Shown one piece after another: positions 9,660 to 18,368 of a stretch of 64,000 bases of DNA. Within the stretch, counting starts at the first letter, position 1; each line of letters begins with the position of its first letter. The stretch lies in the NCBI GenBank assembly GCA_012517315.1, contig JAAYVE010000017.1, positions 1-64,000 of the forward strand. Direction: 5' to 3'. The translations under genes and the position numbers were made by a program. The stretch comes from Deltaproteobacteria bacterium. GTDB lineage: Bacteria; Desulfobacterota; Syntrophobacteria; Syntrophobacterales; Syntrophobacteraceae. The notes under the pieces were generated by a model. The model made no database searches. It saw only the letters and a program-made list of their open reading frames with translations, and had not been told where the DNA came from.

Positions 9660-10646
9660 TCAGATATGGATTTCCACTACATCCCCGTCTCGAAGCACGT
9701 GGTCCTTTTGAACCATTTGGCCGCCAAAGACGGCGGTTCCCCAAATCTTTGCAAATTTCATCCTGCTAACGAAATCTTTATGTATCCTCCCGGCCAGTTC
9801 TTCCAGGGTGCTCCCCACCGGGAGCACGAACGGCGCCTGAAGATTCGGTTCCTTACCCGGGGCTTTTGTGTACACCCTTATGATCCCCGACAGTTCATAG
9901 ACGGTCCTCAGAATCTCCATCAGGCCACGATGCGTTGCGACCGAGACGGGTAAGGAGGGGAGCTTCACTTCAGCCAGTTCCAGGAAGGCCGTAAAGTCTT
10001 CGTCGCCCCTCTTATCGTCTACTTTGTTGACCACGATGAAGGTCTTTTTGATGAATGGCGGTTTCCTCAGATCGTCTGGAATGGGCCATCCCTGCGGGTA
10101 AATCCTGAGGCCTCGCAAAATGGACACGGTGTCTTCCAATTGGCTGATGGGGTCCCCCTGCAGGTCCAGAACCAGTGCCAAGATATCGGCGCGACGAAGC
10201 AGGTCTGCCATGCCCGGGTCGATCCGCTCCCTCGTCACGGGAGGCGTATCCACCAATTGAAACTGGACGTTTTCGTACAACGCCATTCCCGGCGTGGGTT
10301 TCCAGGTGGAATGCGGGAAGTGGGCCACCTCGGGACTTGCATTGGTGAGGGTGGCCACGAGGGACGACTTTCCCGTGTTCGGCGGACCGACAAGGACCAC
10401 TTGGGCGGCCCCCTCCCTTTCGACGGCGAACGCCGTGTCGCGCCGTACTCCGCCTTTCTTCAGCTGGGATTGTTCCTTCACCTTGGCGATACGTCTGCGC
10501 AGGTCGGCCCGCAGCTTGTCCGTGCCCTTGTGTTTGGGCATGATGGTCAGCATCTCTTCGAGAGCCTCCAGCTTCTCTTCCGAGGTTCTGGCCTCTCGAT
10601 AACGCTTTTCCGCCTCGAAATAAGGAGGTGGCAGGTTTGCTGGCAT
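9660..10646 (-). CDS. TGS-domain GTPase (DRG/Obg-related)
   Basis: A 328-aa P-loop GTPase. An N-terminal helical region (residues 1-85) precedes the G domain: G1 GPPNTGKSS, G3 DTPP, G4 NKVD. The C-terminal 70 residues form a TGS domain (VYTKAPGKEPNLQAPFVL ending in GDVVEIHI). This layout matches the DRG-like branch of the Obg superfamily, thought to act on ribosomes or RNA. The ATG at 10646 has GGGGAG eight bases upstream; a GTG three codons earlier is too close to it. It is transcribed toward the sigma factor gene with almost 600 bases between. The cellular role is not known. Confidence 0.85.
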   Translation of the reverse strand: MPANLPPPYFEAEKRYREARTSEEKLEALEEMLTIMPKHKGTDKLRADLRRRIAKVKEQSQLKKGGVRRDTAFAVEREGAAQVVLVGPPNTGKSSLVATLTNASPEVAHFPHSTWKPTPGMALYENVQFQLVDTPPVTRERIDPGMADLLRRADILALVLDLQGDPISQLEDTVSILRGLRIYPQGWPIPDDLRKPPFIKKTFIVVNKVDDKRGDEDFTAFLELAEVKLPSLPVSVATHRGLMEILRTVYELSGIIRVYTKAPGKEPNLQAPFVLPVGSTLEELAGRIHKDFVSRMKFAKIWGTAVFGGQMVQKDHVLRDGDVVEIHI

Positions 10647-10925
10647 TCTTCCCACTCCCCTTGTTGGATGAAACGAAAAAGTTGTGTGGGAGAAGTTTTC
10701 CGGAATTCCCCTTTGCTGTCAATTCGATTTCCTGGCGCTTTTACCCTTGCACGGGACGGGGCATGTTCCGTCACAGGACGGCCGGCTTCCCTGTGGAGGG
10801 AGCTAAAACCATGCATGAGCGGATTCAGATAGGATTTGCCAAATGCCTCAGGATCACTATCATGAAGATCCCTTATCAATGGTTTCGGAGAAACTGAAAC
10901 GTTTGCCTGAGTCAGGAGAGTCCCC

Positions 10926-11093
10926 GTGGAATGCCCTCAATGCAGAAATGAACTCGTCCTCGTTCGATCGTGACGTCGCGTTTTCCTGCGCTGCCGGGAC
11001 TGCGGCGCATCCTATTCCGTTTCAGAGCTCAGTGGAGTGCTTTCGGAGGAGGTGGAAGAGCAACTCCTCTCCTGCCGGGTGGATCGGCTGTAG
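10926..11093 (+). CDS. Small dual-CXXC zinc-ribbon-like selenoprotein (UGA = Sec16)
   Basis: A 55-residue frame starting at GTG 10926, with AGGAG seven bases upstream, contains one in-frame TGA (10971-10973, codon 16) and ends at TAG 11091. It has CPQC at residues 3-6 and CRDC at 23-26, with U at 16 in VRS-U-RRV, and an acidic helical C-terminus. This matches my memory of the RefSeq family called dual CXXC motif small (seleno)protein, in which that position is Cys or Sec. A hairpin suited to a bacterial SECIS follows the TGA. SelD and YedF are encoded in the same window. The function of the family is unknown; metal binding or a redox role is likely. Conventional gene calling would miss it. 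Confidence 0.8.
10987..11009 (+). promoter_or_regulatory. SECIS-like hairpin of the dual-CXXC gene
   Basis: The 8-bp stem TGCGCTGC (10987-10994) / GCGGCGCA (11002-11009) has one G-U pair and a 7-base loop CGGGACT. The loop begins 21 bases after the TGA and has G within its first two bases, as expected for bacterial SECIS elements. Confidence 0.7.
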
Positions 11094-11120
11094 TGCGTGA
11101 CCGACCTAACGGCAGTGAAC

Positions 11121-11145
11121 AAAAAAGGCGGGGTGAACCCCCGCC
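11121..11145 (-). terminator. Rho-independent terminator after alaS
   Basis: GGCGGGG (11127-11133) pairs with CCCCGCC (11139-11145) around a 5-base loop. On the minus strand it is followed by six T (11126-11121), about 30 bases past the alaS stop. It may also slow plus-strand transcripts from the small selenoprotein gene. Confidence 0.9.
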
Positions 11146-11173
11146 CTCTTGTCTCACTGGGGACCTACACCTT

Positions 11174-13834
11174 TCATTTCAGCCGTTCCTCGAGCAGACG
11201 CTCTGCCAGCTCCAGGGCATCGGGCAGTCTCTCAGGCTGGTTCCCCCCGGCCTGAGCCATGTCCGGGCGCCCACCTCCGCTGCCGCCGATCTCCTTCACG
11301 ATCTCCTTGATGAGCTGACCCGCATGAACACGTCCTGCCAGATCGGATGTGACTCCCACGAGGAGGAACGCCTTTCCTGCTTTGGCGGACCCTAACACCA
11401 TGATCCCGTTGGTCATCCGTTCCTTGAACCGGTCGTACATTTCCCGCAGCGCCTTCGGATCGTCGGCCTCCACGCGGCTCACCAGCACCCTTGTCCCGTT
11501 GATCTCCCTTGCTCTCTCCAGGAGATCGTCTGATCTCTTGGTGGCCATGGAAGCCTTGAGGGATTCCAGCTCTTTTTCCAGTTGCCTGTTTTCTGCCAGA
11601 AGCTTCTCCACCCGATCCGGCACTTCCATGGGGGGTGCCTTGAGGAGCGATGCAGCCCGCTGCAGGTGGCCCTGCTGCTGCCGGAGGTGATTCAGAGCAT
11701 GGCGGCCCACGAGGGCTTCGATTCTCCGGACTCCCGCAGCCACACTCGTTTCCTGCAAAATGACAAACAATCCGGCGTCCCCGGTTCGATGGGCATGGGT
11801 GCCGCCGCACAGTTCCCTGCTGAAACCCGGGATTTCCACCATGCGCACTTGATCGCCGTACTTCTCCTCGAAAAGGGCCATGGCCCCAGTCTTGAGAGCC
11901 TCTTCGATATGCATTACCCTGACGCTCAGATCCTGATTTCTGCGGATTTCATCGTTCACCAGGGTTTCGATTTCCACCACTTCTTCAGGCGTGAGGGCTG
12001 AAAAGTGGGTGAAGTCGAATCGCAGCCGGTCAGGGGCCACGAGGGATCCGGCCTGCTTCACGTGATCCCCCAGCACCTTGCGCAGGACTGCGTGGAGGAT
12101 GTGCGTGACGGTGTGATGCTGTTCCGTGTCATGCCGCAACGTCGAGTCCACGATCAGTTCCACCCGGTCACCTGTGCTCACGGTTCCCTCATAGACGCGT
12201 CCCACGTGGACGAATAAATCCCCCGGGAGTTTCTGCGTATCCAGGACGGTGACCCTGCCGGACGGACCGATGATTTCCCCCCGGTCTCCCATCTGGCCAC
12301 CGGATTCTCCGTAGAAGGGCGTTTCCTCGGTGACGATTTCCACTTCCATGCCGGGGGTTGCTTCAGCGACGGTTTCACCACCGTGCACAATAGCGACGAT
12401 GGTGGAGGCAGTCTTCAGGGAATCGTAGCCCACGAACCGTGTGTGGATACCCTTTGCGGCGAGTTGGCGGTAGGCGTCGGAAACCTCCCTCTCACCGCTC
12501 CCCTTCCAACTCATGCGAGACTGCTCTCTCTGGCGCTCCATCCGCTCCTGGAACCCGGGTTCGTCCACCTGAAGGTCCAATCCCCTTGCCGTGTCGGTCA
12601 CAATGTCGATGGGAAAGCCGTAGGTGTCGTAAAGCTTGAAAATGAGGGCTCCAGGGACGATGCGGCTTCCTTCGTCCCGGATGCGCTTGATTTCGTTTTG
12701 GAGAAGCCGCAGCCCGAAGTCCAGGGTTTCGTTGAAACGCTCCTCCTCGTTCAGGATGACCCGCGTGATGAAATTCCGGCTTTCCAGGAGTTCGGGGTAG
12801 GCGTCTTCCATGGATTCCATGACGGAAACGGCCACCTGGTGCAAGAAGGGGCGGTCCAGCCCCAGGAATCGACCGTGTCGCAGGGCGCGTCGCAATACAC
12901 GGCGAAGGACGTAGCCGCGCCCCTCGTTGCTGGGGAGCGCCCCGTCGCCGATAAGAAAAGCGGCCGCCCGGCTGTGATCGGCGATGACCTTGACGGACAC
13001 GTCCTTCTCGGGGTCGGACCCATATCGGTAACCGCTCAATTCCTCGATTTTGGCCATCATGGGCGTGAAGAGGTCCGTGTCGTAATTGGAGGGGACCTTT
13101 TGAATGACTGCAGCAACGCGTTCGAGTCCCATTCCTGTGTCGATGCTCGGTTTGGGGAGGGGTTCCATCACCCCGTCTTCCCGTCGGTTGAACTGCATGA
13201 AGACGAGATTCCACAGTTCCAGGTAGCGGTCGCAGTCACAGCCCGGCTTGCAGTCGGACCGCCCGCAACCGATTTCCGGGCCCTGGTCGATGAGGATTTC
13301 GGAACAAGGGCCGCACGGCCCCGTGTCTCCCATCGCCCAGAAGTTGTCCTTGGTGGAAAAGGCGAGGATGCGGTCGGACGGCAGATAGCGGGCCCAGAAT
13401 CGGCGCGCCTCTTCGTCCGGCCCGAGCTTCATGGCGTCGTCACCCTCGTGGATCGTTGCGTACAGCTTGTCCTTCGGCAATCCCATCTCCCCGGTGAGAA
13501 ACTCCCATGCGTACTCCACGGCTTCTTTCTTGAAGTAGTCCCCGAAGGAAAAGTTTCCGAGCATTTCGAAGAAGGTGTGATGCCTCGCCGTGCGGCCCAC
13601 GTTTTCTAGGTCATTATGTTTTCCACCGGCACGCATGCATTTCTGACTGGTTGCTGCCCGCACGTAAGGCCGCCTTTCCTCTCCCAGAAAAGTGCGCTTG
13701 AACTGGACCATGCCGGCATTGGTGAAGAGCAGGCTGGGATCGTCGTGGGGAATGACGGAGGAACTCTTGACGATGACATGTCCTCTTTGTTGAAAAAAAT
13801 CCAGAAAAGCCTTTCGAATCTGGCTTGCTTTCAT
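11174..13834 (-). CDS. alaS: Alanyl-tRNA synthetase
   Basis: Charges tRNA-Ala and edits mischarged Ser and Gly. The 886-aa protein (family about 875) starts MKASQIRKAFLDFF. The class II core shows LLFTNAGMVQFKR, RAATSQKCMRAGG and HHTFFEMLGNFSFGDYFK. The editing domain has HHTVTHILHAVL and the distal zinc-site pair CGGTHAHRTG, followed by the coiled C-Ala region. The ATG at 13834 has AGGAG nine bases upstream; a longer in-frame start at 13903 would overlap recA and is rejected. It is the last gene of the larC-cinA-thpR-recA-alaS block and is closed by a terminator. Confidence 0.98.
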   Translation of the reverse strand: MKASQIRKAFLDFFQQRGHVIVKSSSVIPHDDPSLLFTNAGMVQFKRTFLGEERRPYVRAATSQKCMRAGGKHNDLENVGRTARHHTFFEMLGNFSFGDYFKKEAVEYAWEFLTGEMGLPKDKLYATIHEGDDAMKLGPDEEARRFWARYLPSDRILAFSTKDNFWAMGDTGPCGPCSEILIDQGPEIGCGRSDCKPGCDCDRYLELWNLVFMQFNRREDGVMEPLPKPSIDTGMGLERVAAVIQKVPSNYDTDLFTPMMAKIEELSGYRYGSDPEKDVSVKVIADHSRAAAFLIGDGALPSNEGRGYVLRRVLRRALRHGRFLGLDRPFLHQVAVSVMESMEDAYPELLESRNFITRVILNEEERFNETLDFGLRLLQNEIKRIRDEGSRIVPGALIFKLYDTYGFPIDIVTDTARGLDLQVDEPGFQERMERQREQSRMSWKGSGEREVSDAYRQLAAKGIHTRFVGYDSLKTASTIVAIVHGGETVAEATPGMEVEIVTEETPFYGESGGQMGDRGEIIGPSGRVTVLDTQKLPGDLFVHVGRVYEGTVSTGDRVELIVDSTLRHDTEQHHTVTHILHAVLRKVLGDHVKQAGSLVAPDRLRFDFTHFSALTPEEVVEIETLVNDEIRRNQDLSVRVMHIEEALKTGAMALFEEKYGDQVRMVEIPGFSRELCGGTHAHRTGDAGLFVILQETSVAAGVRRIEALVGRHALNHLRQQQGHLQRAASLLKAPPMEVPDRVEKLLAENRQLEKELESLKASMATKRSDDLLERAREINGTRVLVSRVEADDPKALREMYDRFKERMTNGIMVLGSAKAGKAFLLVGVTSDLAGRVHAGQLIKEIVKEIGGSGGGRPDMAQAGGNQPERLPDALELAERLLEERLK

Positions 13835-13892
13835 CAGGAAGATCTCCTTGGTGAAAGTTGGGGGGTAAGGGATTCCATCGGCCGGCGCCGGT

Positions 13893-14927
13893 TCAGTCGC
13901 CAACGGCTGATTCCACGGGAAAGACTGGGGACTTTAACTGGTGCAGTTCCCTGAGTTTCTTTTCCACCTCGGCCAGGACATCCGGATGCTCCCGGAGGAA
14001 GTTCTTGGCGTTTTCCCGCCCCTGACCGAGCCTTTCGCCATCGTATGAGTACCATGTGCCTGATTTTTCGACAACCTTCGCCTCCACGCCCAGGTCCAGA
14101 ATGTCTCCTTCCCTGGAAATTCCCCGGCCGTAGATGATGTCGAACTCCACTTCTCGGAAGGGAGGTGCGATCTTGTTCTTGACCACTTTGACCCGGGTCC
14201 GGTTGCCGATGACATCCTGGCCTTCCTTGATGGGGCTGATGCGGCGAATGTCCATGCGCATGGTGGCGTAGAACTTGAGAGCATTCCCACCCGTCGTGGT
14301 TTCCGGCGAACCGTACATGACCCCGATCTTCATACGGATTTGGTTGATGAAAATGACACACGTCTTGGACTTGCTGATGGCGGAAACGAGCTTGCGGAGC
14401 GCCTGGCTCATGAGTCGTGCCTGGAGTCCCACATGGGGATCCCCCATTTCCCCCTCGATTTCGGCCTTGGGAACCAGTGCGGCCACCGAGTCGATGACGA
14501 TCACGTCCACCGCATTGCTGCGCACCAGGATCTCCGCGATCTCCAGGGCCTGTTCTCCGTAGTCGGGCTGGCTGATCAGAAGGTCTTCCACCAACACCCC
14601 CAGTTTCTTGGCATAGTGGACGTCCAAGGCGTGCTCGGCGTCGATGAATGCGGCGAGACCTCCTTGTTTCTGTGCTTCGGCGATGACGTGCAGCGCGAGG
14701 GTAGTCTTTCCCGAGGACTCGGGCCCGAAGATCTCGATGATGCGGCCCCGCGCCACGCCGCCGATACCCAGGGCAAGGTCCAGGGAGAGGCAGCCAGTGG
14801 AAATGGACTGGACTTCCACCTGCTGGGCCCCTTCCCCCAGGCGCATGATGGCTCCCTTGCCACAGGAGCGCTCTATCTGAGAAACGGCCATGTCGATGGC
14901 CTTTTGCCTTTCGTCACCCGATGCCAT
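13893..14927 (-). CDS. recA: Recombinase RecA
   Basis: The DNA strand-exchange ATPase and SOS co-protease. The 344-aa protein has Walker [10 protein letters not shown], the AEHALD segment, Walker [13 protein letters not shown], the L1 loop region [20 protein letters not shown] and the [22 protein letters not shown]2 block. The C-terminal domain ends with the acidic-poor tail SAVGD. GAGGAG lies seven bases upstream of the ATG. alaS follows after 58 bases; the recX that often sits between them is absent. I could not find a convincing LexA box in the 170 bases upstream. Confidence 0.98.
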
Positions 14928-18292: not shown

Positions 18293-18368
18293 GGGCGACT
18301 AGCTCAGTGGATAGAGCGTTGGTCTCCGGAACCAAAGGTCCCGGGTTCGATCCCCGGGTCGCCCACCA
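18293..18368 (+). tRNA. tRNA-Arg (anticodon CCG)
   Basis: A 76-base cloverleaf with encoded CCA. The acceptor arms are GGGCGAC and GTCGCCC. The D arm contains AGCTCAGTGGATAGAGC. The anticodon stem TTGGT/ACCAA encloses loop CTCCGGA (anticodon CCG, reading CGG). The T arm is CCGGGTTCGATCCCCGG. All stems pair. Confidence 0.97.

Follow-up and report, generated by a model that had tools for sequence, protein, structure and literature searches.

A probable selenocysteine-decoded member of the dual-CXXC small (seleno)protein family NF041197 in a Syntrophobacteraceae genome

The described family and the gene in the window

The closest described system is the NCBIfam family NF041197, 'dual CXXC motif small (seleno)protein'. 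In its available part, a 2026 review (PMC13188914) lists this family as OS_HP3, with the motif RxU, and also as 'hypothetical protein DW', with the motif GxU. One protein, SMF39960.1, is assigned different names in the available passages of PMC9312934 and PMC13188914. No function of the family is found in the literature searched, as far as its accessible text extends. Since OS_HP3, with its RxU motif, has already been published (PMC13188914, available part), the gene described here is a further member of a published kind; with it, a still uncharacterised selenoprotein family gains a case tested by comparison. Its product shares with OS_HP3 the length, both CxxC motifs, RxU, the intervening Sec and the C-terminal DRL, and we find nothing that sets it apart.

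The gene occupies positions 10926-11093 on the plus strand of the window, the 64,000-nucleotide stretch of DNA that was analyzed. It is a frame of 55 codons with a GTG start, a TAG stop and a single in-frame TGA (codon 16, positions 10971-10973), and it translates to VECPQCRNELVLVRS-U-RRVFLRCRDCGASYSVSELSGVLSEEVEEQLLSCRVDRL*. A Shine-Dalgarno-like AGGAGA (10914-10919, plus strand) lies 6 bases upstream of the GTG, and a similar motif precedes the in-frame start in 29 of the 33 Sec-form homologues examined. The initial annotation had described this frame, its binding site and the one TGA between CPQC and CRDC, and all of them are present. Two CxxC pairs flank the Sec (C3, C6, U16, C23 and C26). 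The segment from CPQC (residues 3-6) through Sec16 to CRDC (residues 23-26), encoded at 10932-11003 on the plus strand, has the look of a zinc-ribbon core in sequence, alignment and predicted model, with zinc binding presumed. Candidate signals on the same strand come from consensus matching: a promoter-like TTGCCA-16-TATCAT at 10836-10863 (1 found against 0.2 expected) and a terminator-like hairpin at 11127-11145 (1 found against 0.7 expected), between the selenoprotein gene and the convergent alaS. The stretch had also been described as hidden and blank in ORF calling. Ordinary calling does miss the selenoprotein gene, but the mechanical ORF list holds two other plus-strand frames that overlap it, 10843-11100 (85 aa) and 10970-11395 (141 aa), and the family itself is already published. 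These overlapping frames stay open in just 12/43 and 2/43 Sec-form genes, respectively.

The 55-residue product, with C given for U, matches NF041197 with 58.2 bits (E 6.7e-16, profile positions 1-53 of 53) against a curated cut-off of 40 bits. This is the same family that had been guessed from the letters of the sequence. In the genome search, read through the TGA, the score is 48.8 bits, also above the cut-off. The remaining NCBIfam and Pfam matches of the product all fall under their own cut-offs and belong mostly to zinc-binding families. A profile search of the genomes of 59 relatives gives matches in 45, above the cut-off in 42, and each of the 47 listed matches contains exactly one TGA (47/47), whereas none of 14 control genomes has a match. 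Across the phylum, 112 of 395 genomes match (88 above the cut-off), with TGA-containing as well as stop-free rows. A separate scan returns six loci in named relatives, in five MAGs (four Syntrophobacteraceae and one Desulfobacteraceae) and in Desulforhabdus sp. TSK. The sole locus from a viral scan, L137, is a weak match and is judged from its DNA to be a chance one. The invariant columns in 30 aligned Sec forms, an alignment that leaves out L132 and L116, are the four CxxC cysteines, the Sec and E44. Profile match, homologue alignment and translation place the gene in this family, and the comparison of sequences makes it very probable that it is a Sec-decoded member of NF041197 of the OS_HP3 type. 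The gene is dispensable, because 14 of the 59 relatives have no match though 13 of those have selA.

The GxU type of the family likewise has two CxxC pairs with a Sec between them. It differs from the window protein in carrying a GGxAxIxGRU-like motif rather than RxU and in its C-terminus, and it forms its own clade of 19 members (support 0.98). Judged from its motif, it is probably the 'hypothetical protein DW' of the available part of PMC13188914. Among 22 sub-threshold loci, 19 are of the GxU type and three (L086, L089 and L096) are RxU with CxC replacing the first CxxC. The sub-threshold group was considered as an undescribed paralogue; this idea was dropped because PMC13188914, in its accessible text, gives the NF041197 accession to a GxU protein too, and because 5/7 of the group's proteins tested pass the NF041197 cut-off with C for U. 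Of the GxU loci read, 18/19 carry TGA and 1/19 carries Cys. A Fitch count gives 3 U/C changes on the tree against a shuffled mean of 22.8 (lowest 18), which shows merely that the U/C state follows clades. The GxU loci (L077-L085, L087, L088, L090-L095, L134 and L136) have hairpins of their own, and some adjoin topA or dnaX, as named by eye. At several of them a shifted hairpin, GGTGAG...CTCACC or also GGTAAG...CTTACC, follows the TGA.

Codon 16 and the hairpin after the TGA

Sec and Cys exchange at codon 16. The initial annotation had proposed a search for Cys or Sec at this position in homologues, and both are found: Sec (TGA) in relatives, and Cys in 25/25 stop-free homologue loci read, in L076 after a one-residue insertion. 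One genus holds both forms, Sec in L073 and Cys in L066 (genomes G093 and G340). The frame was also said to be protein-like on both sides of the TGA, and this agrees with the pattern of nucleotide differences at first, second and third codon positions, 32/16/77 before the TGA and 76/58/207 after it, summed over 15 gene pairs of which some share a member. The third-position excess is present on both sides, so change of the kind expected for coding sequence continues past the TGA.

TGA is a stop in the standard code, and a true stop here would leave a 15-residue peptide alone, or mark a decayed gene. Homologues ending at the TGA, which the initial annotation took as evidence against its own claim, are not seen among the matches. 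However, a search with the whole profile is biased towards homologues that run on beyond the TGA and tends to miss those that truly end there; it is poorly suited to detect them, and their absence is weak evidence because the whole-profile threshold probably excludes them. As truncated forms could be missed in this way, the case against them rests on post-TGA conservation and on the Sec/Cys exchange. With a third-position bias that persists past the TGA, Cys instead of TGA in 25 homologues and a hairpin that exceeds coding constraint solely in the TGA forms, a true stop has a negligible probability. Translation, TGA in relatives, Cys in homologues and conservation beyond the codon all point to codon 16 being read as selenocysteine.

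A SECIS-type hairpin of 8 bp with the 7-base loop CGGGACT is located at 10987-11009 on the plus strand. Its arms are 10987-10994 and 11002-11009 and its loop is 10995-11001; the TGA lies 13 bases ahead of the stem and 21 bases ahead of the loop. An 8-bp hairpin at SECIS distance had been claimed, and it is indeed there; it is ordinary when folded alone, and its conservation across homologues exceeds coding constraint. Dinucleotide shuffles match the 50 bases of the window from the TGA in stability (z -0.49; 55/200 at least as stable), and over a longer stretch a different fold is preferred (-14.8 against -13.3 kcal/mol). Rfam offers no family for the hairpin, nor any that reaches its gathering score around the gene. 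The case for the hairpin therefore comes from comparison.

In 43 Sec-form genes, a set that includes the window gene, the mean pairing is 6.49 of 8 pairs, compared with 5.46 ± 0.16 for synonymous shuffles (0/300 reach it), and the stem energy has a z of -8.1. The 25 Cys-form genes, which serve as the negative control, give 4.68 compared with 4.63 ± 0.13 shuffled (117/300 reach it; z -0.1). The 60 bases from the TGA align without gaps in 42 Sec-form genes. In these 42 sequences the covariation score is 0.262 against 0.194 shuffled (0/500), with its maximum at slide 0, and 81.0% of the cells are paired against 76.5% shuffled (1/500), again with the best value at slide 0; pairs changed on both sides number 5, a count that 86/500 shuffles equal. 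In this register, all 8 pairs are formed in 13/43 Sec-form genes and four or fewer in 5/43. G occupies the second loop position in 30/43 Sec-form genes versus 4/25 Cys-form genes. These comparisons indicate a SECIS-like hairpin behind the TGA, conserved beyond coding across the family. The loop starts with AGGTC in at least 11/43 Sec-form genes, a loop type that we take to resemble the E. coli fdhF SECIS; the window loop, CGGGACU, differs from it.

Several points define these sets. L032 is the window gene itself and is removed from the hairpin and tree sets as a duplicate. L132 is absent from the gap-free alignment of 42 genes and is included in the hairpin-pairing sets and in the tree set. 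L139-L141 and L143 lie on contigs equal in length to those of L022, L021, L018 and L019 and are probably the same genes, and just L138 and L142 are added to the SECIS set.

Decoding genes in the host genome

The canonical selA, selB and tRNA-Sec genes are present in the host genome, where selA, selB and selC had been suggested as genes to look for: selA with 632.8 bits, selB on contig C25 with 377.9 bits, and a tRNA-Sec with a UCA anticodon on contig C56 with 74.2 bits. SelA, SelB and tRNA-Sec would place selenocysteine at codon 16, with the hairpin at 10987-11009 as the guiding signal. Since selA is near-universal in this lineage (58/59 relatives, and 359/395 genomes in the phylum), its co-occurrence with the family is uninformative there. 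At least two phylum genomes have a TGA form and no selA match, G059 (79% complete) and G095 (67% complete), a count that draws on 20 genomes named among the 36 selA-less ones. A selB-like row on contig C53 was considered as a partial selB; comparison suggests a frame of about 400 aa that resembles EF-Tu, and the row is excluded from the selB count. Two further selB-like genes score above the cut-off, one on contig C28 and one on contig C43 (neighbours included in the frame).

A different decoder of UGA is described in the available passages of PMC7609411, where selC* tRNA-Cys occur with SelB* and CysRS* and some of them, in Desulfobacterales, have an opal anticodon; the selC* tRNAs are cysteine tRNAs shaped like tRNA-Sec. 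The discriminator base is G73 in tRNA-Sec and U73 in tRNA-Cys (PMC5330540 and PMC7609411, in their accessible text). The host set fits the selC*/SelB* description, and differs in that the combination of UCA, A73 and an altered GTPase is absent from the passages of PMC7609411 on selC*. On contig C43 of the host genome (G000), a tRNA-Sec-like gene at G000:C43:55593-55682 has the anticodon UCA, A73 and 55.8 bits to tRNA-Sec. The SelB-like gene at G000:C43:53507-55513 (L144) is 79 bases from this tRNA and shows altered GTPase motifs, with GHVAHGKT and no RGLTI.

Similar tRNA-SelB pairs are found in the relatives G001 and G036 (L187 and L188). In the host and in G001, a formate-dehydrogenase-like gene adjoins the pair and carries Cys, not TGA, at the usual place of Sec. 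Seven other relatives (L189-L195) show at 7/7 loci a tRNA-Sec-like gene (GCA, U73), then a CCxWCSY protein, which we take to be MvhD-like, then a SelB-like gene. Altogether, ten tRNAs are linked to SelB* (nine relatives and the host); seven are GCA with U73 and three (G000, G001 and G036) are UCA with A73, where the assignments of the 73rd base are our own reading. Among the other tRNA-Sec-like hits, the anticodons read are those in G000 and L196-L197. The three UCA-linked SelB-like proteins lack both the D of GHVDHGKT and RGL(T/S)I, while the other seven retain both, as does the copy on C28.

A short CysRS-like gene lies at G000:C34:19106-20356, a 424-aa frame that matches model positions 1-405 of 466 with 271.7 bits, below the cut-off; it probably lacks the anticodon-binding part. 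A similar short CysRS occurs in G001 with one stop in the match, and none is found in the relatives G036, G003 and G028.

With this set, TGA in the genus could be read wholly or partly as Cys by a selC*-type UCA tRNA together with SelB* and the short CysRS. The closeness of the UCA tRNA to a SelB-like gene, the short CysRS-like gene in both the host and G001, and the opal selC* tRNA-Cys with SelB* and CysRS* in the available passages of PMC7609411 speak for it. However, the TGA form is present in 45/59 relatives, and a close SelB* (at least 39% identity, nearly full length) is listed in 10/59; 7/10 of the SelB*-linked tRNAs are GCA and 3 are UCA; G036 has the UCA form yet neither a short CysRS nor an NF041197 match; A73 in the UCA tRNAs is neither the base of tRNA-Sec nor that of tRNA-Cys; and a tRNA-Sec/SelA/SelB set is present. 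We regard decoding as Cys as very unlikely. It is also improbable that two UGA decoders compete in the genus, so that this site, and other UGA genes too, may carry Sec or Cys depending on selenium supply. A genome that also carries a selC*/SelB* set offers a setting in which to ask which decoder serves a particular UGA.

Structural model and gene neighbourhood

The predicted model, built from seven sequences, has a mean pLDDT of 72 and a pTM of 0.50. It places strands at residues 9-14 and 19-23, residue 16 in the intervening turn and a helix at 41-48. Its structural matches are weak: none has E ≤ 0.001, the best Z is 4.3, and most are RNA polymerase chain I, which we assume to be the RPB9 zinc ribbon, and translation initiation complexes. 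The family profile aligns with 2jrp, a structure of the YfgJ type (E 8.6e-6; 0.0011 for the best single stretch). YfgJ (PF07191; 2jrp and 2jne) is a double zinc ribbon without Sec, and its similarity to the window protein is remote; it is the second ribbon of 2jrp that aligns, with Cys at the Sec place. The window protein itself scores 14.1 bits against PF07191 (E 0.049), under the Pfam cut-off of 25, and 14 of the 30 Sec forms reach E ≤ 0.01, the best of them 0.00028. Among 198 genomes, 53 have a PF07191 match, mostly in short parts of long frames. The literature search found no paper on YfgJ and the zinc ribbon together.

A single zinc ribbon is the most likely arrangement, in which CPQC and CRDC would bind one metal ion. 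Sec16 would then sit in the β-hairpin turn between the CxxC pairs, beside Arg14 and Arg17, presumably exposed and apart from the metal. A partner protein or a small thiol may be the redox counterpart of its reactive selenol, by way of a selenenylsulfide or a selenenic acid. Oxidised Sec would need such a partner, because the 30 Sec forms have no invariant Cys beyond the four of the CxxC pairs and the Sec position. The modelled Sec site is the turn of a zinc-ribbon-like hairpin, not a CxxU redox pair. We propose this one-zinc ribbon presenting a selenol in a hairpin turn tentatively, as a reading whose chances fall somewhat short of even; zinc, exposure of the Sec and the redox role are its conjectural parts.

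Sec16 of the Sec-decoded protein might instead be a metal ligand, or part of a site that carries or senses metal or selenium, as in a metallochaperone or a sensor. Five soft ligands within 24 residues are suggestive of this, as are the Cys at the Sec place of the YfgJ-type ribbon and the lack of another invariant Cys in the 30 Sec forms. On the other hand, the two CxxC pairs already supply four ligands, the model sets Sec16 in a turn between two strands, and no metal gene is among the 14 neighbour proteins read. We consider a metal site rather unlikely, and prefer the redox role of an exposed selenol.

In the ORF list and by Pfam, the neighbours of the gene are a divergent GTPase with a TGS domain (9660-10655, minus strand) and a convergent alanyl-tRNA synthetase (11174-13903, minus strand). 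Since both are on the other strand, the selenoprotein gene stands alone. Together with the occurrence of Sec and Cys forms in one genus (L073 and L066), this makes the family convenient for study. The genes around the locus, as assigned by Pfam, are the TGS GTPase, alaS, recA and a sigma-70 factor. In the 39 main-type loci mapped, AlaRS is nearby in 8/39 and the TGS GTPase in 7/39; def, pyrE, glmS, topA and dnaX, named by eye, are found near family loci elsewhere. No constant partner gene is seen among the 39 main-type and 22 sub-threshold loci mapped and the 14 neighbour proteins read, where the Pfam run covers the neighbours in the window alone. The sole RNA gene in the window, by Rfam gathering score or ARAGORN, is a tRNA-Arg (CCG) at 18293-18368.
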